Below are positions 6,304 to 27,405 of a stretch of 27,405 nt of DNA, piece by piece. The DNA lies in IMG/VR virus record IMGVR_UViG_3300006224_000034, positions 1 through 27,405 of that record. The stretch is one strand, 5' to 3'. The first letter of the stretch is position 1; the number at the start of each line of letters is the position of its first letter. The notes under the pieces are model-generated. The model did not search any database. It saw only the letters and a list, made by a program, of their open reading frames with translations, and was not told where the DNA came from. This stretch comes from a virus. The position numbers were made by a program, and so were the translations under genes.

Positions 6304-6963
6304 CTACTGGTTATCGTCTATATCGTTCCAGCCGGGAGTCTGGTTATCATTTACATCAACCCACACTACTGTCTGATTATCGTTTATGTCTGTCCACACT
6401 GTAGGGGTATTGTCGTTTATTTGACTCCAGCCTCTAGCATACTCTGATTCAATCAATGTGATGATATCAAAAACGCTTACGGAAAATACGACTAATACAT
6501 CGTTAGAATCCGTTAAAGTAAGGCTTTCAAATATATTTCCGAGGAATGCAACAAGTCCTACATTGGTGTCTGTTAAAGTAAAACTCTCCGCTAAATCAAC
6601 TGAGAATACGGCGCTTGTGTTCTGAACATCGGTTAAGGTAAGGGCTTCTGCAATGACTCCTACAAACGCCCCTAAAACAGTTTGAGCATCAGTTAAGGTA
6701 AAAGATTCATTATTAACCGCTGGCCATGTCGCTAAGCCGGTTTGGGTATCGGTTAATGTAAAACTATCTGATACGTCTGCCGGGAATAAAGCATTAATAC
6801 TCTGTACATCAGATAGAGTAAAACTCTCGGTTTGAGCCCCTAAAAAAGCCCCTAAAGCAGTCTCACTGTCGGATAGCGTAAAACTTTCTGCTACATCCAC
6901 TGCATAAAATGCACCAGCTAAAGACGCGAAGGGGACTTGGGCAAAAGCAGCTATGCCGAACAT
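6304..6963 (-). CDS. Doubly periodic repeat protein, candidate tail fibre
   Basis: A 219-residue protein built almost wholly of repeats. Eight 20-residue units carry ESFTLSD-like cores starting exactly at residues 26, 46, 66, 86, 106, 126, 146 and 166; the last, DIITLIE, is degenerate. Then four 11-residue units start with Trp at 179, 190, 201 and 212, with consensus W-x-D-I-N-D-N-Q, and the gene stops at the end of the last unit. The first 25 residues are hydrophobic and may be an attachment segment. It lies between two fibre genes, so an elongated fibre or spacer role is likely but unproven. The Asp/Asn-rich 11-mers could bind divalent ions. The start codon overlaps the upstream stop region (TAAATG). 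Confidence 0.78.
   Translation of the reverse strand: MFGIAAFAQVPFASLAGAFYAVDVAESFTLSDSETALGAFLGAQTESFTLSDVQSINALFPADVSDSFTLTDTQTGLATWPAVNNESFTLTDAQTVLGAFVGVIAEALTLTDVQNTSAVFSVDLAESFTLTDTNVGLVAFLGNIFESLTLTDSNDVLVVFSVSVFDIITLIESEYARGWSQINDNTPTVWTDINDNQTVVWVDVNDNQTPGWNDIDDNQ
6307..6429 (-). repeat. Four 33-bp units encoding 11-residue W..INDNQ repeats
   Basis: Four units of 33 bp at the 3' end of the repeat protein gene encode GWSQINDN, VWTDINDN, VWVDVNDN and GWNDIDDN cores at a strict 11-residue spacing. The last unit is cut short by the stop codon. The array slightly overlaps the end of the 60-bp repeats in coordinates because unit limits are conventional. Confidence 0.88.
6409..6888 (-). 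repeat. Eight 60-bp tandem units encoding 20-residue repeats
   Basis: The coding sequence shows eight tandem 60-bp units with no insertions or deletions, each encoding the core E-S-F-T-L-S/T-D or a variant. DNA copies have diverged at many positions while the protein core is kept, so the array is not very recent. The last unit is the most degenerate. Confidence 0.9.
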
Positions 6964-8061
6964 TTAAGGAATCTCTGCTGATGCTGTAATCCCACTACTC
7001 GTGTTATTGTACCAAACCCCTCTTCCAGCTGCCGCTGGAGCATAATACGCACATAAAGTTTGGGTATCCACTTGAGTGAGATTAATGCTGCCTGTTGTAT
7101 TTACTGTAGTAAAAGCGCCTATCACTCCCATAAATGGTATAGCACGTTTTGTCTGTTTAAAGTTAAAGCATAAAGGTATCGCTACTCCTCCTGTTGGGAC
7201 TTGTATTTCTGCATAAATTGACCCTAATGTTGTGCCTCCTATAACTTCAAAATACCTCTGACACATCTGCAACTCACGGCCATAATCCCTAAAGTCATAA
7301 TCCGTTTTTACTGCACCCTTTTCAAATTGGGCTCTTCCCATCGTCCACGTACCGGATGTTTGGGCTCCGACCGTAAAGAGAATTTCCACGCCTGTGATAG
7401 CCGCAGCAGGCACTATAAACGATGTCTGGTAATTAGTGAGACTTGCACTGACTGTGAAAGTGCCGGTGGCAATTTGGGTTTTTGTTGGCGTTCCGATTGT
7501 CCCAAATGTATCGGCGGTCGTTGTGGCATAAGAAGCTGTCCACGTTACTGTAGTGAGTAAAGAGTTGGCTAAATCAACAGACAGCGTACAAGTGCTGCCA
7601 GCCAAATCATAGACATTATTTGATTCAATTCTCTGGCCAATACCAATAGCTGTAACGGAAGCCGCACCGGTCACTTGTAGTAAATTCTGAATAGCGCCAG
7701 CACCTGCGATTTGTGCTGCTGTTACATTGGCACCAGTACAATAAACAAACCATCTATCTACACAGGGGTAGCCTGTTGATATCGTAGGTACCGTAGTAGC
7801 GGCAGTTACGGTAGCTGACGTAGCCCGTTGAGCAAAGCGCATACGGCCATTAATAAACCGGTTTTTGAAGCCGGTATAATTGGTGCTGCCTGTAATTAAT
7901 CCGGCTACTGAGAGTGAGCCGGGAAGGGCTACGGCTGGGGAAACGGATGTTAAAACAGTTCCGGTTTCTGCTGGCAATGAGAGAACATTCGACCCCGCTG
8001 CTGCTGGGGCTTGAAGTGTTATTGTGCCAGAAGTATCGCCTGCGATTATTAGACTAGACAT
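6964..8061 (-). CDS. Tail fibre protein, paralogue A
   Basis: A 365-residue fibre-type protein. The N-terminus (MSSLIIAGDTSGTITLQAPA, then NVLSLPAETGTVLTS) is a common phage fibre beginning. Next is the motif GFKNRFINGRMRFAQ, then a beta-rich body with GYPCVDRWFVYCTGANVTAA, and LEVDL-like and TVGAQTSGTWTMGR strands. RDYGRELQMCQRYF follows, a recurring end to the conserved fibre domain. The last roughly 90 residues differ completely from paralogue B, as expected for a receptor-binding tip. It starts immediately after B (TAAATG). The shared body and swapped tip point to gene duplication with tip diversification or exchange. Confidence 0.88.
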   Translation of the reverse strand: MSSLIIAGDTSGTITLQAPAAAGSNVLSLPAETGTVLTSVSPAVALPGSLSVAGLITGSTNYTGFKNRFINGRMRFAQRATSATVTAATTVPTISTGYPCVDRWFVYCTGANVTAAQIAGAGAIQNLLQVTGAASVTAIGIGQRIESNNVYDLAGSTCTLSVDLANSLLTTVTWTASYATTTADTFGTIGTPTKTQIATGTFTVSASLTNYQTSFIVPAAAITGVEILFTVGAQTSGTWTMGRAQFEKGAVKTDYDFRDYGRELQMCQRYFEVIGGTTLGSIYAEIQVPTGGVAIPLCFNFKQTKRAIPFMGVIGAFTTVNTTGSINLTQVDTQTLCAYYAPAAAGRGVWYNNTSSGITASAEIP

Positions 8062-9165
8062 TTAAGGAATCTCTGCTACTAATTGTAAATCTGCATTGGT
8101 ACCCATTGTAACAAATGCCGGTTGGCCAGCAGTATAGGGGGCTCCTGTCCCAGTAACTGTAAAAGATACGTTATGTTTAGCGTACCCGGAGATACTAATA
8201 ACAGTAATAGCAGATTGTACTGATTGAGTAGTTAATGCTCCTGCACCATTAACTATTAATACTGGCAAAGATTTAAGCTCGTTAGGTAGTTGGTATGTAC
8301 ATGTTGCAGCAGATGTAGATGCAGTTAAGCCCATCATGCAATACGCGACTCCTGATATAGTACCCCCAAATCTAAAGCAGTATCGTTCACATAGCTGCAA
8401 CTCACGGGTATAGTCCCTGATGTCATAACTTGTAGGAATAGAACCTTTTTCAAGTTGAATTCTACCTAATGTCCATGTGCCTGATGTTTGTGCCCCAACA
8501 GTAAATAAAATCTCTATGCCAGTTGTGGCAGCTGCTGGTACTGCTATGGCTACATTATAATTTGTAATTGTGGAGTTAACCGTAAAGGTGCCGGTGGCAA
8601 TTTGAGTTTTGGTCGGTGTGCCTATTGTGCCGAATGTGTCTGCTGTTGTGGTAGCGTAAGAAGCTGTCCAAGTAACAGTGGTTAGTAATGAATTAGCTAA
8701 ATCGACAGATAGATTGCAGGTACTACCGGCAAGGTCAAAAGAATTATTCTGTTCAATACGTTGACCAACACCAACAGCAGTAACTGATGCTGCTCCAGTA
8801 ATCTGTAGTTGATTCTGAATAGCACCTACACCAGCCACTTGAGCAGCTGTAACATTGGCTCCAGTGCAATAAACGAACCACCGGTCTACGCATGGATATC
8901 CGGTTGAAGCCGTAGGTACTGTTGTACCAGCGACAACTGTAGAAGAAACTCCCCACTGAGCAAATCTCATCCTGCCGTTAATAAACCGGTTTTTAAACCC
9001 AAACGTATTCGGTAAATTAACAGGGTTAGCAAACACGACATTCTGCGTGGCATCAATAGTTACCGCTGCTACACCGGCTGTCTGGATTTCTAAAATTCCC
9101 GAAGCGTCTGCTGAGGTTATTACACCCCCGCCTGCTGCCGTGGCTGCATTAATCTTTGAGGTCAT
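8062..9165 (-). CDS. Tail fibre protein, paralogue B
   Basis: A 367-residue fibre protein, paralogous to its downstream neighbour. Both share GFKNRFINGRMRFAQ, the segment from GYPCVDRWFVYCTGANVTAA through LSVDLANSLLTTVTWTASYA and GTPTKTQIATGTFTV, and LFTVGAQTSGTWTLGR. The N-terminal roughly 60 residues and the C-terminal tip (from about residue 285) are unrelated to those of A. I chose the ATG at 9165 because it overlaps the upstream stop as ATGA. An in-frame TTG four codons earlier is possible but less likely. Both paralogues end in AEIP within a shared 20-bp DNA stretch. Codon third positions differ widely between copies while the protein is conserved, so the duplication is old or was exchanged between phages. 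Confidence 0.88.
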   Translation of the reverse strand: MTSKINAATAAGGGVITSADASGILEIQTAGVAAVTIDATQNVVFANPVNLPNTFGFKNRFINGRMRFAQWGVSSTVVAGTTVPTASTGYPCVDRWFVYCTGANVTAAQVAGVGAIQNQLQITGAASVTAVGVGQRIEQNNSFDLAGSTCNLSVDLANSLLTTVTWTASYATTTADTFGTIGTPTKTQIATGTFTVNSTITNYNVAIAVPAAATTGIEILFTVGAQTSGTWTLGRIQLEKGSIPTSYDIRDYTRELQLCERYCFRFGGTISGVAYCMMGLTASTSAATCTYQLPNELKSLPVLIVNGAGALTTQSVQSAITVISISGYAKHNVSFTVTGTGAPYTAGQPAFVTMGTNADLQLVAEIP

Positions 9166-9677
9166 AAAACCACCCAACGGCTACCCGAAGGCACCGTAAC
9201 AGTAACACCACCAGCAACAGTAACCGGTCCAACACTTGAAGCGCTGTAGCCTGCTGGTATTGCGTAGGTTGTTGCGATAGTCATGTTATTAATAATTAAC
9301 CCGTTTGAGGCAAGTAATTCTGCCGCTGTTAATTGTAAGAGAATAGTGCAATTACCAACAGCATCCAGATTAACCGATTTCTCGGCTGGGTAAGTGACAA
9401 ACACATCCTTTGTACCGGCAGAGAAGTTAACCAGCGCCCCGCCATTGGATGAAGCCAACACTGTTGTTCTGGCCAATGTTGTTCCAGCCAGTGTGTAAGT
9501 ACCAATGCCCACTTCCCAGTTTGGTCCCACTTGATCGGCAATACAGTAAAGAGTTGTGTTGCCATTACCAATAACAGAGAATGCTTGGTAACCCGTTGAT
9601 GCACCCAAAAGCGTAGCCGTGCCCGTACTGACAACAGCAGTGGTTTCTTTTACGCGATCTTTGAGTACGAGGGCCAT
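9162..9677 (-). CDS. Fibre adaptor / head-binding protein
   Basis: A 171-residue protein whose first part, MALVLKDRVKETTAVVSTGT, then GYQAFSVIGNGNTTLYCIAD, WEVGIGTYTLAGTTLARTTV and GGALVNFSAGTKDVFVTYPA, is a very widespread module at the N-terminus of phage fibres or as a short separate protein. It is thought to link fibres to the virion. The C-terminus (TIATTYAIPAGYSASSVGPV then VTVPSGSRWVVL) is typical of small beta-strand virion proteins. The ATG overlaps the stop of the upstream endonuclease by one base (TAATG), and its own stop overlaps the paralogue B start (ATGA), so the endonuclease and the fibre set are tightly coupled. Confidence 0.88.
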   Translation of the reverse strand: MALVLKDRVKETTAVVSTGTATLLGASTGYQAFSVIGNGNTTLYCIADQVGPNWEVGIGTYTLAGTTLARTTVLASSNGGALVNFSAGTKDVFVTYPAEKSVNLDAVGNCTILLQLTAAELLASNGLIINNMTIATTYAIPAGYSASSVGPVTVAGGVTVTVPSGSRWVVL

Positions 9678-10411
9678 TACATTACGTTCCCATATCTATT
9701 TCGGCTAATAATCATTGAAATTAATGTTCGTGAGACTCCAAATTTATCTCCAAGGACTTGTTGAGTATCACTACTGGTTCTAATCTCCTTTACTTGCTCA
9801 TCCGTTAAACTACCAGATTTTCTCGGGGTTGGTTCAGTCCTTACATCACCCTGCAAGTCTTTAAATATCTTCCCGTGGACAATGTTCATTATGGTCTTCT
9901 TACTAACCATAAGGTGAGTGGCTATCTCTTGATAAGTATACTCTGGATAATTAGCCCTTGCATAAAGCACTTGTTCATCCGTTAACCTAGAATTAGGTCG
10001 TTTTGGTATAGGCTTCATAACAACCTCATCCAGCGACATTCCCTGTCTTAATCTATAAGTGATTGCTCCACCGGTACATCCTAAATCCCTTGCCCATTCA
10101 GCTAATGTTTGGGTTGTCCCATTAGCAGTTAAATTATGATTGTTACTTTTATTATGAGCTTGTTCTAAGCGTGTAGCCCATCGACAGTTGGAAGGTTCGT
10201 AATTTCCATTATTGTCTTCTCTCTCTAAAGTAAGCCCATCTTTATAAGAAGCCATATCAACTAAGAATTTTACAAATCCTTCAGCTCCACTCCATTGTTC
10301 ACAGACGTTAATTCCCCTAGCTCCATAATAAGCATAAGCTTTATTTTTAGGGTTCTCACATCTATTATGCATAGCTCGCCAAATATTAAATATTTTCTTA
10401 ACTTGTTTCAC
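9677..10411 (-). CDS. HNH-like homing endonuclease with two helix-turn-helix repeats
   Basis: A 244-residue protein of the free-standing phage endonuclease type. Residues 9-40 (FNIWRAMHNRCENPKNKAYA, YYGARGINVCEQW) and 61-90 (LTLEREDNNGNYEPSNCRWA, LEQAHNKSNN) match the degenerate HNH/AP2-like pattern with R, D, N and C-R-W-A-T landmarks. The C-terminus holds two LTDEQV helix-turn-helix units (142-184 and 202-240) of the kind used to recognise a target. It sits between a virion gene and the fibre adaptor and does not interrupt either. The start is GTG at 10411, because AGGAG lies 8 bases upstream and no ATG fits. That ribosome-binding site is inside a hairpin, suggesting restricted translation. 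Confidence 0.85.
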   Translation of the reverse strand: MKQVKKIFNIWRAMHNRCENPKNKAYAYYGARGINVCEQWSGAEGFVKFLVDMASYKDGLTLEREDNNGNYEPSNCRWATRLEQAHNKSNNHNLTANGTTQTLAEWARDLGCTGGAITYRLRQGMSLDEVVMKPIPKRPNSRLTDEQVLYARANYPEYTYQEIATHLMVSKKTIMNIVHGKIFKDLQGDVRTEPTPRKSGSLTDEQVKEIRTSSDTQQVLGDKFGVSRTLISMIISRNRYGNVM

Positions 10412-17452: not shown

Positions 17453-17459
17453 TCAAATC

Positions 17460-17563
17460 GTTATCTCTGTACCAGCGTGAACTGTTAAAGAAATAGCTTA
17501 AAACCTATTAAACTAAAGCCTCGTCCTCGACCGTGTTCACGCATAGTCTACGAGGCTTTTTTT
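17460..17563 (+). ncRNA. Candidate leader RNA or small RNA with pseudoknot
   Basis: From the predicted start near 17460 to the terminator end at 17563 is about 104 nt with no convincing gene. GCGTGAAC (17475-17482) is the exact reverse complement of GTTCACGC (17535-17542), which lies in the loop of the terminator hairpin, so an 8-bp pseudoknot or a competing fold is possible. A weak GCTT/AAGC pairing (17496-17499 with 17516-17519) would overlap the terminator's left arm. It could be a free small RNA or an attenuator for the PEP-CTERM gene. It does not match a riboswitch class I can name. Confidence 0.5.
17515..17563 (+). terminator. Intrinsic terminator/attenuator upstream of the PEP-CTERM gene
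   Basis: Perfect 10-bp stem AAAGCCTCGT / ACGAGGCTTT (17515-17524 with 17550-17559), 25-base loop, then seven T's (17557-17563). It lies between the promoter and the start codon at 17588, so full transcription of the gene requires read-through or a regulated alternative fold. Confidence 0.7.
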
Positions 17564-17587
17564 ATGTCTTATTTTTGAGGTAATTAA

Positions 17588-18334
17588 ATGAAACTATTAC
17601 GACCCGCTCTGTTAATCGGTTTACTACTTGCCAGTAGTGCCCAAGCCGCGCCTATCTCCTTCACCAATATTTTTAATGGCTCATTGTCGTCGTGGCAAAC
17701 GGTAGGCACCGTTGATGATAGTATTGCTGATGCTCCGAATGGCCCTGATACACAATTCACTTTATTGAATCTAACCGGTCTTGCCGCTACTGATGCCCAG
17801 TGGATTAATGTAACCATTCAGGAAGCTCATTCTGGCTTATCAGATGTTTTGTATAACGTGGTGTTTACCCCTAACGTAACCAGTGCGGCAAGCCCATTTT
17901 TTGCTACTAGCGGCTACACAAATGGCTTAAGCTCTATTGGCTATCAAGTGACCGCACTAAAGAATGAGTTTCTTGCCAGTGTCCGTTTAGATGTCAATGC
18001 AGCTGGGGCAACCGCTACTGAAAGTGATGTTACTACTCTATCTGATGTGTCGCTGGCTAACCCTGCTTTTCTGACATTAACCAGCTTGGGTGGTCAGCCT
18101 GACCCAATATCTCCCCCCGGCTCTCACATTAACTTCTCACCTCGCAAAACCGTTTTCGTAAATAATTCCTTTGATGCGAATGGCGGTCTGATCAATTCTG
18201 TAAGCAATCAGTTCGATGTTCATACTGTTCCTGAGCCAGCAATTCCCTTATCTTTGGGTCTTGGTTTAATTGGCTTGGGTTTTATGAAAAATAAGAGTAA
18301 GCTATCTGCTAACACTCAGGTGTCTCTCGCGTAA
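17588..18334 (+). CDS. Secreted PEP-CTERM sorting-signal protein (phage moron)
   Basis: A 248-residue plus-strand gene with GAGG 7 bases before its ATG. The N-terminus MKLLRPALLIGLLLASSAQA is a classic Sec signal peptide, cut near residue 20. The C-terminus has VPEP (214-217), then a hydrophobic span AIPLSLGLGLIGLGFM (218-233) and a basic KNKSK, the tripartite PEP-CTERM signal recognised by exosortase. An extra tail of about ten residues follows. The mature body, with many Asn, Thr and Ser, has no recognisable enzyme motif. In bacteria PEP-CTERM proteins are processed and exported with exopolysaccharide, as in floc-forming and biofilm species. No exosortase is in the window, so a host enzyme would be needed. 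Its own promoter, leader and terminator mark it as a moron. Confidence 0.85.
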   Translation: MKLLRPALLIGLLLASSAQAAPISFTNIFNGSLSSWQTVGTVDDSIADAPNGPDTQFTLLNLTGLAATDAQWINVTIQEAHSGLSDVLYNVVFTPNVTSAASPFFATSGYTNGLSSIGYQVTALKNEFLASVRLDVNAAGATATESDVTTLSDVSLANPAFLTLTSLGGQPDPISPPGSHINFSPRKTVFVNNSFDANGGLINSVSNQFDVHTVPEPAIPLSLGLGLIGLGFMKNKSKLSANTQVSLA

Positions 18335-18342
18335 TATCTTTC

Positions 18343-18392
18343 AGCCCAAACCATTATGAGCTTATCCTCGTAATGGTTTGGGCTTTTTTTTT
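18343..18392 (+). terminator. Strong intrinsic terminator after the PEP-CTERM gene
   Basis: Perfect 14-bp stem AGCCCAAACCATTA / TAATGGTTTGGGCT (18343-18356 with 18371-18384), extendable by a wobble and two more pairs, then nine T's (18384-18392). It closes the PEP-CTERM cassette nine bases after its stop codon. Confidence 0.93.
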
Positions 18393-18404: not shown

Positions 18405-18605
18405 ATGAATATATTAAAGCTGTTAGGGCTGGAACCAGATACCCCGTTAATATTCCATCGGAATAATGTATGGCCTGATATTCAACGCGAATATCCCGAC
18501 CCAAAACGACCGGGTTTAGTCTTTACAGTCCCCCCAGAACATGTCCTACTATGCCCATTTGAAATCGAGAGACTTCAACAGGAGTGGGACGCTAAAAACC
18601 TTTAG
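18405..18605 (+). CDS. Small accessory protein, 66 aa
   Basis: A 66-residue plus-strand gene with GAGG close to its ATG. It begins MNILKLLGLEPDTPLIFHRN and contains DPKRPGLVFTVPPEHVLLCP and FEIERLQQEWDAKNL. No family is recognised. It starts 12 bases after the U-run of the PEP-CTERM terminator, so it depends on read-through or an unseen promoter. The next gene follows after 10 bases, so the two form one unit. Confidence 0.65.
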   Translation: MNILKLLGLEPDTPLIFHRNNVWPDIQREYPDPKRPGLVFTVPPEHVLLCPFEIERLQQEWDAKNL

Positions 18606-18615
18606 GAGATTTATT

Positions 18616-18831
18616 ATGGCAGACGGCCCCGGAATTTATGATTTTATCTGTACTCAAGTCAGAGAACAGACAAGTGCCAAAGGTGTTGTTATTCTAATTA
18701 TTGATGGCGCTATAGGCAGCGGGTTTTCAGTCCAGACTTCAAGCCTTGAACTGAATGATGCCCTACCCGCTGTACTTGAAGACATGGCTCGCCAAATACG
18801 TGAAACCGGCTTTGAGACTACTGAAGATTAA
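18616..18831 (+). CDS. Small phage protein, 71 aa
   Basis: A 71-residue protein beginning MADGPGIYDFICTQVREQTS, with a central VVILIIDGAIGSGFSVQTSS and helical ending LPAVLEDMARQIRETGFE. It resembles small conserved phage proteins of unknown function. The ATG at 18616 has AGGAG 7 bases upstream; a longer frame from 18541 overlaps the preceding gene and is less likely. It is the last plus-strand gene before the convergent endonuclease. Confidence 0.75.
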   Translation: MADGPGIYDFICTQVREQTSAKGVVILIIDGAIGSGFSVQTSSLELNDALPAVLEDMARQIRETGFETTED

Positions 18832-18874: not shown

Positions 18875-20332
18875 TTATTTACTCCATATCCATTTCTGAC
18901 TGCCTACTCCGTGGATTTTTGACCATCCTGCTTCTGTACAGATTTCATTTTCTGTTTTAGTCGGGGCATAAAACTTGTTTAACTGATGTTTGGGTTCAGC
19001 CAGTTTATGCTTCTGAACAGAATATCTCGGTATGCGCTTAACCTCTCCTTTAGGTACCCACCAATAATCAGGCTCTGTTATGCTAGCTAATGTAAAACCA
19101 GTAGCTTCGTAAAGCTTTCCATCACCATAACGAAGGTCACAGTAACTGATTATCTCGTTTGGGTCTACCTCAGTCTTAAACTGCTTTAAAAGCCTTGAAA
19201 AACCTCCCTGAACCCGACCGGTAGAAGCATATCGGGTTACTTCCCATCTACCCTCTACTTTAGCTCCTGTCATTGCCCCAGACCTTGCCTTTCCAAAAGT
19301 AGCCACAGCCACTATGTTTTCTTCGTCTTTCAGGGCATAGCAGTAAGACGCAACACCAGCACCTTGTATGTGTGTGGCTACCAAGAAAGGACGCGCCTCA
19401 GACATAGGGATTTGGCTTAATTTCAGCTTTCTTGCTTGATACTGTGGGGCTTTACCAATAAAGGCTAACAACCGATTCTTAACAATGTCTTGCTTATCCA
19501 GCCACTCATCCTCAAATATCTGAACCAAACGAATCCCGGCTTTGTTGGCCGCTTCGTATTTTTCGCGGTGGTAGTTACTGTGAGTGCGAGGGGATGAGTG
19601 CCAGTATAGACCATGATATTCAATACCCATCTTAAATTCAGGAAGGTAAATATCGATTTCTTTTGGGGCTATGATTTGCCGGTTGCGCCGCTCAACTACA
19701 GTGTATTGGGCCAAGAAGTCTGCTATGGCTTCCTCATCCTGTGATTTCATATTCCCACATTTATTACAAGTTATTTGGCCAGATAAATGATTTACCGGCC
19801 TCTGCATATTGGTCCCATGCTCACAAGTTACAGCAACTGTTGGCATCTGCATATTACTCCACTCTACAGCTTCATAAGTAAACTTATCTGGATGTATTGC
19901 TTGTGCCCTTTCTTTAAATACCTCAAATGTTAGTTGCTTTGATTTCCGTATTTTAGAACCCTTGCATTTCGGGCAACCCTGCTTACCTCTAAAATGATTA
20001 TCTGGAGACTGAAAGAACTCTCCATGAACAGAACACCCAATACTTACTTTTAAGTCTTTACCAATATATTTAACTTTAGAGTAGTCATATAAATCTCCAT
20101 GAATAGATTTGAACCTATCTACCCAGTCTGCCCCTCGGCCAACACATTTAGAGCATCCAGACCCTCTACTTGTAAAGCTTGTGGGGACTATGAAAAATGA
20201 CCCATGCTCTCTACATATAACTTCCACTGGAACCTTTGCAGCTTTATATACCAACTTGGAATAATCATATTTCTTCCCATGAATAGCCAGAACTCTACTC
20301 ATGTAATCTTCTTGGGTTATTAATTTTGGCAT
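18875..20332 (-). CDS. Vsr/EDxHD-like homing endonuclease with three zinc modules
   Basis: A 485-residue protein. It has three repeated Cys/His modules: C40, H43, C60xxC63; C100, H103, C120xxC123; C170, H172, C189xxC192. The first two carry the KYDYSKLVY / LYDYSKVKY core. A nuclease domain follows (about 195-290) with KEIDIYLPEFKMGIEYHGLY, where E225, D227, E238, H240 and H245 fit the Vsr/EDxHD active-site pattern of phage homing endonucleases such as I-Bth0305I. The C-terminus (about 300-430), with ATFGKARSG, GRWEVTRYAS and ISYCDLRYGDGKLYEATGF, is a separate domain of unknown role often found behind such nucleases. The ribosome-binding site is AGGAG. It ends in a convergent junction. Confidence 0.85.
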   Translation of the reverse strand: MPKLITQEDYMSRVLAIHGKKYDYSKLVYKAAKVPVEVICREHGSFFIVPTSFTSRGSGCSKCVGRGADWVDRFKSIHGDLYDYSKVKYIGKDLKVSIGCSVHGEFFQSPDNHFRGKQGCPKCKGSKIRKSKQLTFEVFKERAQAIHPDKFTYEAVEWSNMQMPTVAVTCEHGTNMQRPVNHLSGQITCNKCGNMKSQDEEAIADFLAQYTVVERRNRQIIAPKEIDIYLPEFKMGIEYHGLYWHSSPRTHSNYHREKYEAANKAGIRLVQIFEDEWLDKQDIVKNRLLAFIGKAPQYQARKLKLSQIPMSEARPFLVATHIQGAGVASYCYALKDEENIVAVATFGKARSGAMTGAKVEGRWEVTRYASTGRVQGGFSRLLKQFKTEVDPNEIISYCDLRYGDGKLYEATGFTLASITEPDYWWVPKGEVKRIPRYSVQKHKLAEPKHQLNKFYAPTKTENEICTEAGWSKIHGVGSQKWIWSK

Positions 20333-20511: not shown

Positions 20512-21423
20512 TCAGGCCCCGGGGCTGGAATACGCACCCAAACTGTCGCTGAAACCGAACGAATATCTTTCGCGCGCCTTATATCTGCTGTTCCCCGACT
20601 CAAAATCACCATCCATGCCGGTTGTTAACGGAGCCCGAACGAACATTTTAAGACCATTCGGAACGTCAGTAGTCAACATCCAAGCGTTGGTGTCAGTGAA
20701 AAAGTGGTTGATCTTGTAGCCTTCGGGGATTGACCCGTTGTTTACTATCGCATTTATGTCGTTGTCGGTCGTTCCAACACGAAGTTGGGTTTCCAGTAAA
20801 CGGGTAGCAACGAATTGTAAGGCAGGAGGAAGCACCAGTTTTTTCGGTTTAGCAGCGATTAAAAGTCCGCGTTCGTCTGTCCACGCTGCGATTTGAATCA
20901 CAGCAGCTTCCAGTGAGGTTTCGTTTAAATCAGCAGCCACAGCCGGGGTATTGGAGTTAAATCCACCACCAACCAGAGGATGAAGGGTAGAGAATAATGC
21001 CACGCCATCACCACCCGGATAAGCAGCGGAGAAGCCGTTATTGATAACAGCTGCGCCTTTTACTTGTTTGGTGTAGGCCATGGCACGCGCCAATGCTTTT
21101 GTGTAGCGAGCAGAGAGAGAATCATAAAGGTTATCTTCTATCGCTTCCTCGGTTAAAGCAAAACCGAGAGCAATTGTTTCGTGATTGTAGCGGGCTGTCC
21201 ATGCTTCCTGCGCGTTGTCATATTGAATGGCAGCGCCTTCATATTTGACGGGAGCGGCAGAAAAGCCTGACAGTTTTGTTTCTTCTTCAAAACTACGTTC
21301 GGAAGATTCAATTTCGTAAATCTCTTTATGCTCTTCGCCGTAACGAGCATATTCCAGACCAAACAGAGCGTTTAGACCCGGTAGTAGTTCTTTGAGAAGT
21401 TGTGAACGGGAAATAGCAGCCAT
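20512..21423 (-). CDS. Major capsid protein
   Basis: A 303-residue protein with the sequence pattern of major capsid proteins in podovirus-like marine and freshwater phages. It includes LNALFGLEYARYGEEHKEIY, EEETKLSGFSAAPVKYEGAA, AWTARYNHETIALGFALTEE, AIEDNLYDSLSARYTKALAR and AMAYTKQVKGAAVINNGFS. The later INAIVNNGSIPEGYKINHFF and FVRAPLTTGMDGDFESGNSR are also characteristic. An HK97-type fold is expected from this family. It has a strong ribosome-binding site (TAGGAG), is preceded by the 283-residue virion protein, and is the last gene before a strong terminator, as usual for a highly expressed capsid gene. Confidence 0.93.
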   Translation of the reverse strand: MAAISRSQLLKELLPGLNALFGLEYARYGEEHKEIYEIESSERSFEEETKLSGFSAAPVKYEGAAIQYDNAQEAWTARYNHETIALGFALTEEAIEDNLYDSLSARYTKALARAMAYTKQVKGAAVINNGFSAAYPGGDGVALFSTLHPLVGGGFNSNTPAVAADLNETSLEAAVIQIAAWTDERGLLIAAKPKKLVLPPALQFVATRLLETQLRVGTTDNDINAIVNNGSIPEGYKINHFFTDTNAWMLTTDVPNGLKMFVRAPLTTGMDGDFESGNSRYKARERYSFGFSDSLGAYSSPGA

Positions 21424-24278: not shown

Positions 24279-24725
24279 TTACTTTCTCCTTATCCCGACT
24301 GGATTTTCAACAACCGCCTCAACATTATCGTCGTTAATTAAACGAAATTCTTGGCCATGTATATCCAGCCGACTACCGGTATATGGGCGGGTGATAATGA
24401 AATCGCCAACTTTACACCACGGGCCTGTTGGGAACTTATGTTCGTCGTTATAGCAGTCTGGACCCATGGCCACGACGAATAATACAGTAGACAGCGTAGA
24501 CTCATCAGCCAGTGTTTTCTCGGCTTTGATGATACTGCTATTATCGAACTCTCTGTCAATATCAGGGATGGCACAGAGAATGTGGTATCCGGTTGGTTGT
24601 GGCAATTGTGTTGCCTGCCTTTTAGGTTTTGAATTTGGGTCGGCTTGCCCTATAAGAGCTTCGCGGCCAATAGTACCCACAACTTTTGGGTTTTTTGGGT
24701 CTGTTGCTAATAGAAAATCACTCAT
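24279..24725 (-). CDS. GroES-like co-chaperonin homologue
   Basis: A 148-residue protein whose C-terminal two thirds match Cpn10-like phage proteins. Key stretches are LADESTLSTVLFVVAMGPDC, FPTGPWCKVGDFIITRPYTG and SRLDIHGQEFRLINDDNVEA then VVENPVG. The order of strands (ADES..V...G......GD.....Y.G.....G.E..LI.D..V.A) is that of GroES. A phage Cpn10 could steer host GroEL towards capsid folding, as T4 gp31 does; here that is inference. It sits in the capsid transcript. The mobile loop region that contacts GroEL is not obvious. The ribosome-binding site is AGAGGAG. Confidence 0.8.
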   Translation of the reverse strand: MSDFLLATDPKNPKVVGTIGREALIGQADPNSKPKRQATQLPQPTGYHILCAIPDIDREFDNSSIIKAEKTLADESTLSTVLFVVAMGPDCYNDEHKFPTGPWCKVGDFIITRPYTGSRLDIHGQEFRLINDDNVEAVVENPVGIRRK

Positions 24726-25104: not shown

Positions 25105-25300
25105 CCCCTTCTACAGTTTCGTGATACAGCTCGTTTATGTTGCGGCATGCTTCCAACAGACCTACAATCTGCCCACATATTTCCCTATACTCTGCATAGT
25201 CTTTGGCAGTCCCTTTACTTACCCAGTCTTTTAAAAACTCTATTCTTTGGGTATGGATACTGTGTAATACTTCTAGTGCGTTATTCAGTTCTGCACTCAT
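25088..25300 (-). CDS. Small helical phage protein, 70 aa
   Basis: A 70-residue mostly helical protein (LEVLHSIHTQRIEFLKDWVS, YREICGQIVGLLEACRNINE) with a very acidic end (VEGDEDDQ). It starts at an ATG overlapping the portal stop as ATGA, with GGAGG upstream, and overlaps the next gene by 17 bases. Small proteins of this kind follow the portal in related phages; the function is not known. Confidence 0.8.
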   Translation of the reverse strand: MSAELNNALEVLHSIHTQRIEFLKDWVSKGTAKDYAEYREICGQIVGLLEACRNINELYHETVEGDEDDQ

Positions 25301-27405
25301 TTTTTACCTCCGGTAGGTTTGGTAGTTTTGGCCACTTTTATATCGTGTTCATGTTGAGCGGCTTGTGAGCCTATCTCATGCTCATGTTGAGCGGCAGTCT
25401 TGGCAATATCGGTACCGATCTTGGCAGCTGATGTCACATGTTGCTCCTGAAGCTTTGACTGGTTTATATGCAGGTTTGCTGCAACAGTGGCACCAGCTGC
25501 TTCTGCCGTACTATCGTTTTTATTTTTAGTTATTCCCAACTTGGCATATTCGACGGCTATATCTTCGTCGTCCCGTTTTGATTTTCTTGCCAAGTCGCTC
25601 TCTTTGATCTTGAGTTCCTGCTGTTGCATCTGGATAAGCGGGTCTTGTTGTTTTTGCTGATTCTGCTGATTTTGTTGTTCTTGCAGATTCTGCTGTAGTA
25701 GTTGCTGTGAGGCTTGGGCAGCAAGTTTGGATACTTGCAGTTCAATTTCAGCGGGAATCCCAACTTGGTTATCCTCATCCTCTGGACTATCACCGTAAGT
25801 TGGCAAGTCCCTCCCCATAGCCTGTTCAATCTGTTTTCTGTACTCATATCCTAAATGCTCCGCGATGTGGGCTCCCAGTGTTGCCTGTAGTGCAGCAAGA
25901 CCTTGTGGATTTGTGGCAAAAGCAGCCTGTAATACTTGCTGAACTTTGGGGTCATGCATTACTGCCGTGTGGACAATTATGTGCGCTTGATGGTCTTGAT
26001 ACAAAAACGCTTTTACCGGCTTTCCTTTGAGGATGTTTTGATTTTCAGTTACTGGGTCACGAGGTTTGAGGTCGTCGTCCATGGGCACGAGCTTCTGGTA
26101 ATTTGGTACACCCAAAACCTCCAGCATCTGCCTGTGTAATAGTGGCATATCATAGAGCTGTTGTGCTGTCTGGGCTAACTGGAGAACGGCTTGATATTGG
26201 ACAACCCTTTGTGCGAGAGTCGCAGCATTAGGGTCACTAACGGGTACAACTGCAACGTTCTTATAGTCAGAGCGTTTAGCTTTCGGAGTCCCTTCTTGTG
26301 GGTCATAGGAGTAAGTAGTTGGCGTATAATCACGGATAATGTTTCTGATGAGCTGAAGCTCACGCTTCATGGAATAGTGAACCCTGCCTTGGATGGCACT
26401 TATCAATTTCAATGTTCTTTCAAGCACAGCCAGCGTAGTGCCAACCGGTGAGTTAGAAGACATATCAGACACAGCCAAATCAGCACTGCCGGCCAGTTTC
26501 CGTCCTTCTTCAACAATAGATGTCAGTAAGGAAAACAGTGTTTGGTCAGCGCCCTTGTAGGGCAGTGGCAGGAAATTTTCTTTGAGCGTACCACTTGCCA
26601 CATCAACGTCACGCCATTCACCGGGGCTTACCGGCGTGTCATCGCCTTTTATTCTTAAACCCCTACTCTTGAATCCCCCCGGTAAATTAGACAGCGTACC
26701 GGCGTCTACCAATTGGCGAATCAATGAAGTGCCCGACTTGGCAAAGCCACCAATTAAATTTATCAAACCGAGACAGTAAAATCCGAAGGCTGGTATATAC
26801 CCGTAGTGGACAAGGTGTTCACGTTTTATAAACTTCTTATCGTCCGGTTCCCAGTTTCTACGGATGGCCAGTATAGTCGTAGTCCCCTTGTCAATGGTGA
26901 CAATGTAAGGTAGCTCTATACCCGTATATTCCCCGTTCTCGTCCTTATGTTCATAACCCTCTAAATCGAGGTTTACCTGCATTTCAAGCAGCTTGTACCT
27001 CTCATCCAAAGTAACCCGGAACCCTAAACGCTCGGCAATCTTCTTCTCAACATCATCAATCATGTTGGTAGGCTCGCCTATCTCAATCTCACGATAGAAG
27101 CCCTCATATTGCAGCTTGATAATCTCGTTCTTGGTTTTACGCATAACATGGGTTATACGTTCGGATGTTTCTAGGCTGGTAGAACCATAGGGCACCACAA
27201 TATCTTCTGCAGGAATATACATCGATACTTGGCGGTTTAGGCTTGGGTCAAAATACACTTTCTTAAAGGCATTACCACATAGCGCCAAACCAAACATCGC
27301 CCGTTCATGCTCTGGCCTGAACTCCACCATCACTTCAGTGAGGTTATAGTTCATGTCTTCCTGTACACGGATAGAGGCTTCTTTTAATTCCTCAGTCTGT
27401 TTACC
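25297..27405 (-). CDS. Portal protein, N-terminus missing (runs off right edge)
   Basis: The frame is open to the window edge, giving 702 residues with no start. An internal ATG at 27354 begins MNYNLTEVM but is not the true start, because 17 in-frame codons precede it. Typical portal segments include FGLALCGNAFKKVYFDPSLN, YIPAEDIVVPYGSTSLETSE, RITHVMRKTKNEIIKLQYEG, GYIPAFGFYCLGLINLIGGF and SDLAVSDMSSNSPVGTTLAV. The C-terminus (about the last 160 residues) is Gln-rich and helical, with a doubled AAQHEHEIG / AAQHEHDIK, suggesting a barrel or coiled coil as in P22-type portals. It forms the dodecameric DNA gate at one vertex. Terminase genes would be expected just beyond the edge. Confidence 0.9.
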   Translation of the reverse strand, partial: GKQTEELKEASIRVQEDMNYNLTEVMVEFRPEHERAMFGLALCGNAFKKVYFDPSLNRQVSMYIPAEDIVVPYGSTSLETSERITHVMRKTKNEIIKLQYEGFYREIEIGEPTNMIDDVEKKIAERLGFRVTLDERYKLLEMQVNLDLEGYEHKDENGEYTGIELPYIVTIDKGTTTILAIRRNWEPDDKKFIKREHLVHYGYIPAFGFYCLGLINLIGGFAKSGTSLIRQLVDAGTLSNLPGGFKSRGLRIKGDDTPVSPGEWRDVDVASGTLKENFLPLPYKGADQTLFSLLTSIVEEGRKLAGSADLAVSDMSSNSPVGTTLAVLERTLKLISAIQGRVHYSMKRELQLIRNIIRDYTPTTYSYDPQEGTPKAKRSDYKNVAVVPVSDPNAATLAQRVVQYQAVLQLAQTAQQLYDMPLLHRQMLEVLGVPNYQKLVPMDDDLKPRDPVTENQNILKGKPVKAFLYQDHQAHIIVHTAVMHDPKVQQVLQAAFATNPQGLAALQATLGAHIAEHLGYEYRKQIEQAMGRDLPTYGDSPEDEDNQVGIPAEIELQVSKLAAQASQQLLQQNLQEQQNQQNQQKQQDPLIQMQQQELKIKESDLARKSKRDDEDIAVEYAKLGITKNKNDSTAEAAGATVAANLHINQSKLQEQHVTSAAKIGTDIAKTAAQHEHEIGSQAAQHEHDIKVAKTTKPTGGKK

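Follow-up and report, generated by a model that had tools for sequence, protein, structure and literature searches.

Does a tailed phage encode a protein addressed to the surface-sorting pathway of its bacterial host? PEP-CTERM is an address tag that many bacteria use for sorting proteins to the slimy outer surface, and some exosortase substrates hold together the flocs and biofilms of sludge, soil and lake bacteria; for most exosortase substrates, we know of no role. The question was raised by an initial annotation of one viral DNA, which described a gene lying amid capsid and tail genes on the opposite strand, with its own promoter and terminator, and encoding a protein with a Sec signal peptide and a PEP-CTERM C-terminus. 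The DNA, here called the window, comprises the whole of an IMG/VR virus record, 27,405 bases long.

The gene, its protein and its phage

Nearly all likely genes of the window lie on the minus strand, where a portal gene (phrog_1216), a GroES-like gene, a scaffold region and the gene for the major capsid protein (PF25209) are followed by structural and tail genes. The candidate gene is on the plus strand, opposite to the capsid, portal and structural genes around it, which without exception lie on the minus strand, as first described.

17588 to 18334, plus strand: PEP-CTERM protein gene, 248 amino acids, ATG start, matched by TIGR02595; codon usage and GC3 are those of the phage genes
16624 to 17307, minus strand: flanking structural-region gene, 53% identical to the gene at the corresponding place in the relative L046 (sequence comparison)
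18875 to 20332, minus strand: flanking nuclease-like gene, found repeatedly in this slot among relatives; weak MTES_1575/DUF723 matches
20512 to 21423, minus strand: major capsid protein (PF25209, phrog_371)
25297 to 27405, minus strand: portal protein, cut short at its 5' end by the edge of the record (phrog_1216)
18405 to 18605, plus strand: small ORF b, 66 amino acids, without homologue; may not be a gene
18616 to 18831, plus strand: small ORF c, 71 amino acids, without homologue; may not be a gene

A capsid protein 80–87% identical to that of the window is carried by 80 viral contigs. A related capsid gene is also found in DSL-LC04 (OR003939), of the proposed family Dishuiviridae (PMC10611076), with DNA 67.5% identical over part and a similar order of head genes. 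Unlike the window, the 61.5 kb of DSL-LC04 contain no gene for a PEP-CTERM protein. It is predicted to be lytic, and its assignment to Pseudomonadota is also by prediction (PMC10611076).

Elsewhere on the minus strand, tandem paralogues at 6964-8061 and 8062-9177 share similar cores but diverge at their ends, a pattern like that of receptor-binding or tail proteins that have been duplicated, and the protein of 6304-6963 is made of repeated SFTLTD-type units. A protein among the tail genes (9677-10411) matches sigma-70 region 4 (PF04545, 32.5 bits). The region 24279-24725 gives a weak Cpn10 match (18.7 bits, below the cut-off), and DSL-LC04 has an annotated GroES co-chaperonin there.

The protein of 17588-18334 has the following parts.

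17588 to 17647, plus strand: predicted Sec signal peptide, residues 1-20, with cleavage between AQA and AP (hydropathy scan and by eye)
18227 to 18295, plus strand: PEP-CTERM sorting domain, residues 214-236, consisting of VPEP, a hydrophobic stretch and a lysine cluster (TIGR02595 above cut-off; hhalign to phage family A, described below)
18296 to 18331, plus strand: atypical 12-residue extension past the profile match, SKLSANTQVSLA (comparison of PEP-to-end lengths)

The signal peptide, MKLLRPALLIGLLLASSAQA with predicted cleavage before AP, was supported both by a hydropathy scan and by eye. The C-terminus reads VPEP-AIPLSLGLGLIGLGFM-KNKSK, and the protein terminates in VPEPAIPLSLGLGLIGLGFMKNKSKLSANTQVSLA. 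TIGR02595 scored 18.5 bits on the protein against a curated cut-off of 16, and 22.9 bits (E 6.6e-6) in a record-wide scan, a threshold at which none of 14 control genomes gave a match. The Pfam model PF07589 was narrowly missed, at 20.0 bits against a gathering score of 20.7, a difference of 0.7. Of the eight PEP tripeptides that a six-frame translation of the window contains, the one in 17588-18334 alone leads into a hydrophobic stretch and then into basic residues clustered close to a stop. The mature body contains no cysteine, 2% lysine plus arginine, 12% serine, 10.9% threonine and 8.9% asparagine; the published values for PEP-CTERM proteins are 0.4% cysteine, 8.8% serine, 8.8% threonine and 5.8% asparagine, with few basic residues (Haft 2006, PMC1569441). 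In direction and size, the bias of the predicted body matches the published signature. The window protein and its gene share with the known exosortase (EpsH) substrates (TIGR02595/PF07589, Haft 2006) a signal peptide, a tail of VPEP, hydrophobic and basic parts, composition, organization as a single-gene unit and lack of body homology; they differ from these substrates in lying on a phage among capsid and tail genes.

A search for homologues in viral and host genomes yielded matches to the tail and not to the body. The tail aligns with those of bacterial PEP-CTERM proteins, and no body homologue was found beyond it in viral contigs, GTDB genomes, isolate phages or plasmids. Matches in 399 genomes from the order of a Burkholderiales MAG were almost all tail-only, and hhalign against family A covered residues 203-237 only (probability 81). 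Solved structures gave no match, and an AlphaFold model from the single sequence was unusable (pLDDT 34). A search of isolate phages with the short PEP-CTERM peptide also gave no match, a result that is uninformative because the query is subject to low-complexity filtering. Residues 84-234 weakly match residues 120-257 of PepA (NF033554; 14.8 bits, E 0.018), a PEP-CTERM protein acting on exopolysaccharide retention; against the equivalog cut-off of 80, the window protein is not a PepA member. At the level of predicted sequence features, the identification of the open reading frame at 17588-18334 as a phage-encoded PEP-CTERM protein was confirmed.

The tail nevertheless differs from those of known substrates. 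In addition to the missed Pfam cut-off, its basic cluster consists of lysines only, with no arginine, and the distance from PEP to the end is 34 residues, compared with 22-31 in 55 phage tails and 23-30 in 19 bacterial tails; some later-found family A tails reach about 33 residues. The tail as first described, with VPEP, hydrophobic and basic parts, was borne out, with lysine-only composition and excess length to be added. An exosortase-independent type I inner-membrane protein, facing the periplasm, with a signal peptide and a C-terminal anchor and acting for example in superinfection exclusion, would account for a cytoplasmic tail that is lysine-only and overlong and that misses the Pfam cut-off, and would not need a host that carries exosortase. 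However, the exact placement of VPEP and the LGLGLxGLGF core resemble sorting tails and not generic anchors, and we consider such a protein distinctly unlikely.

Control elements and the insertion slot

Phage morons are autonomous promoter-gene-terminator units amid late genes, and we know of no moron or surface-modifying superinfection-exclusion protein that uses a C-terminal exosortase signal. Judged by sequence only, the window gene resembles such a unit: it has its own putative promoter and terminator, is absent from close relatives and is flanked by conserved phage genes.

17425 to 17452, plus strand: sigma-70-type promoter match, TTGACA-16-TATACT, 11 of 12 consensus positions; the best site in the window and the only one with 11/12
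17515 to 17563, plus strand: leader hairpin followed by T7, intrinsic-terminator-like, between promoter and gene; 10-bp stem, -19.1 kcal/mol
17577 to 17580, plus strand: ribosome binding site GAGG, 7 bases 5' of the ATG (read from the sequence)
18343 to 18392, plus strand: intrinsic terminator of the cassette, 18-pair stem and T-run; the longest terminator in the window

The gene is thus framed by the best sigma-70 match and the longest terminator of the window, in agreement with the promoter and terminator originally proposed. In total, the window has no more promoter-like sites than shuffled sequence, and its excess of terminator-like sites is only slight, so that the argument for a cassette is drawn from two extreme elements framing one gene. 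The leader hairpin, which the initial annotation did not list, has a z-score of -4.75, with 0 of 200 shuffles equally stable; it has no Rfam match and no counterpart in the other loci examined. Since the hairpin and T7 lie between promoter and gene, the promoter may yield an RNA of about 105 nt or an attenuated leader (17459-17563, plus strand), with the strong hairpin and T7 at its end. The hairpin may be an attenuator, or may end such an RNA while read-through or regulated attenuation carries transcription on into the gene, and it could switch the PEP-CTERM gene off. Most proteobacterial PEP-CTERM genes have a sigma-54 site upstream (Haft 2006, PMC1569441), in contrast to the sigma-70-type promoter match of the window gene. 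No sigma-54 site (TGGC-N7-9-TTGC) was found near or upstream of 17588-18334, and sigma-54 control of the proteobacterial kind was rejected for this gene.

Relatives of the phage carry variable, sometimes opposite-strand inserts directly behind the capsid gene (L027, L042, L046, L054, L056, L063, L076 and L109). The closest relative, L046 (capsid 87%, portal 70% identical), has both genes that flank the cassette (36% and 53% identical), and the opposite-strand open reading frames between them differ from those of the window, one of them encoding an Ig-like Big_2 domain. Opposite-strand cargo across these eight contigs includes GNAT-like, weakly HNH-like and Big_2-domain products, and other relatives have nuclease-like genes in the slot. 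A PEP-CTERM tail was found in 0 of 50 records of close relatives.

An assembly chimera, in which a phage contig was joined to a bacterial PEP-CTERM locus, would give the same arrangement, and the junctions were found in no second record, with near-identical records possibly lying outside the searched set. However, phage genes lie on either side of the insert, in the order seen in L046, and a false join at both ends is unlikely. By trinucleotide composition and codon use, the cassette does not stand out from the phage, and the insert sits in a known variable slot; on these grounds, the chimera reading was rejected as very improbable. Neither of the two refuting outcomes named in the initial annotation was seen: the main PEP-CTERM model is passed, and nothing in the sequence comparisons indicates a chimera. 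The family models, the control elements, the matching composition and the slot in relatives together uphold the initial reading of a PEP-CTERM gene that probably forms an autonomous cassette of the phage.

Such a gene could be a passenger, captured from a host and drifting without benefit to the phage. Its body is a singleton, its tail is overlong and it is missing from the 50 searched records of close relatives. Set against this, composition and codon use are those of the phage, the reading frame is intact, promoter, ribosome binding site and terminator are tightly arranged, and PEP-CTERM genes recur in many phages. We regard a passenger as distinctly unlikely.

PEP-CTERM proteins in other phages

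Two motif scans of IMG/VR identified about 54 other contigs with canonical PEP-CTERM open reading frames. Since these contigs were selected by the motif itself, a score check on the first 27 is not independent; independent support comes from signal-peptide-like starts, shared bodies and neighbouring genes. Clustering of the bodies put 20 in family A, 8 in family B and others in small groups, with the window protein as a singleton. A search with a six-member profile placed family A in 69 IMG/VR contigs, including the following.

L220, 3112 to 3762: family A member
L240, 5234 to 5887: family A member
L237, 10850 to 11485: family A member
L243 to L310: further contigs with family A members

A PEP-type tail stands at the end of 70 of the 74 family A rows (some rows duplicate one contig), and PEP is degenerate or missing in three. 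L246, L257 and L268 have the same body, but the PEP ahead of the hydrophobic stretch is degenerate (VSEP or VFEP) or was not seen, and they represent natural variants of the motif. The family A gene lies directly before the portal gene and behind TerL in L220 and L240, and TerL is nearby on the same strand in 17 distinct contigs of three TerL/portal lineages. Family B (L082, L092, L093, L094, L098, L105, L231 and L242) has a member just upstream of TerL in L092. A single portal family model matched in 6 of 48 PEP-bearing records, a figure that reflects the one model and not an absence of phage genes; some of the other PEP-bearing contigs may include bacterial flanks.

Like the window protein, family A is phage-encoded, with a signal peptide and a PEP-CTERM tail. 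It differs in its body, which forms a separate cluster with no homology to that of the window protein; in its tails, which are arginine-rich and mostly shorter, whereas the window tail is lysine-only and 34 residues long; and in its position, co-oriented beside TerL and portal genes and not in an opposite-strand cassette. Beyond the tail, family A has weak similarity to the floc protein PepA (up to 47 bits against a cut-off of 80). No family in PHROGs matches family A, which would appear to be a new family of phage proteins. One family A and one family B protein gave no match among 50,697 records of isolate phages, and family A was found in none of 349 genomes of the sampled order (that of a Burkholderiales MAG) at E 1e-12, in a search with no positive control.

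Processing and possible roles at the host surface

No exosortase was found on the window record or on 36 other PEP-CTERM-bearing records, so processing would need the enzyme of the host. In the order of a Burkholderiales MAG, which may not be that of the host, exosortase was present in 158 of 399 genomes sampled and PEP-CTERM in 107 of 300. These data are consistent with a host that carries exosortase, as initially suggested. Host assignment from MAG-binned capsid relatives was unusable, with bins that span many phyla. One bacterial bin, KR2_bin-0756 (L109, L110 and L112), contains three different phage capsid genes; because it holds several phage contigs, it is unsafe for host inference.

The best explanation, which we favour with a little better than even confidence, is a phage moron whose product is exported, is cut by the host exosortase and alters the surface of the infected cell. 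The phage, a tailed relative of the proposed Dishuiviridae, would have acquired the gene as cargo in the variable slot that follows its major capsid gene. Transcription would start at the gene's own sigma-70 promoter and run opposite to the late operon, and the terminator hairpin in the leader may tune it. Sec would export the product, whose C-terminal segment would keep it in the inner membrane until the exosortase of the host cleaves it at the PEP motif; the protein would then be set free to the outer surface or into the layer of exopolysaccharide. There it would change the cell surface, most likely affecting adsorption of rival phages or the holding of exopolysaccharide. We infer export, host processing and a surface role from these features, the surface role being modelled on PepA from floc-forming bacteria (PMC9012009); effects on adsorption, superinfection or flocculation, as originally suggested, would be plausible. 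Against this explanation stand a tail that is below the Pfam cut-off, lacks arginine and is overlong, a leader hairpin that could silence the gene, and the failure to find either a body homologue or a PEP-CTERM tail in the 50 relatives' records, so that selection on the gene is not demonstrable.

Whether Zoogloea cells retain their exopolysaccharide depends on PEP-CTERM expression, and loss of that expression leads to soluble exopolysaccharide and planktonic cells (PMC9012009). On this basis, display or decoy would both be reasonable by analogy. As a decoy, the phage protein would flood the host exosortase and block display of host PEP-CTERM proteins, loosening exopolysaccharide or floc and aiding the spread of progeny. 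The Zoogloea phenotype is in line with this proposal, as are a strong promoter match of constitutive type where a sigma-54 site would be usual and an atypical tail that could bind without release. In family A phages, however, the body is conserved along with the tail. A pure decoy would have no use for such a body, and we judge a decoy unlikely.

The occurrence of PEP-CTERM proteins in phages is more general than could be seen from the window by itself, given the canonical tails of the other contigs and the spread of family A. Uncultivated tailed phages of several lineages, that of the window included, may have repeatedly recruited the host exosortase pathway, with PEP-CTERM proteins of their own by which the exopolysaccharide surface of an infected cell would be rebuilt or stripped away, in superinfection exclusion or in dispersal of biofilms and flocs; in one widespread family, the gene would regularly stand next to those for terminase and portal. 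We advance this proposal tentatively, at somewhat less than even confidence. We found no report of phage-encoded PEP-CTERM proteins, or of a link between this sorting system and viruses, in the open-access literature searched. Because family A recurs in at least 69 contigs, the question can be tested without relying on the window record alone. Viruses may draw on a bacterial system for sorting proteins to the cell surface, and phage-encoded substrates, if true, would tie the exosortase pathway to phage-host conflict, would supply small testable substrates and would suggest that phages can change the aggregation of floc-forming bacteria.
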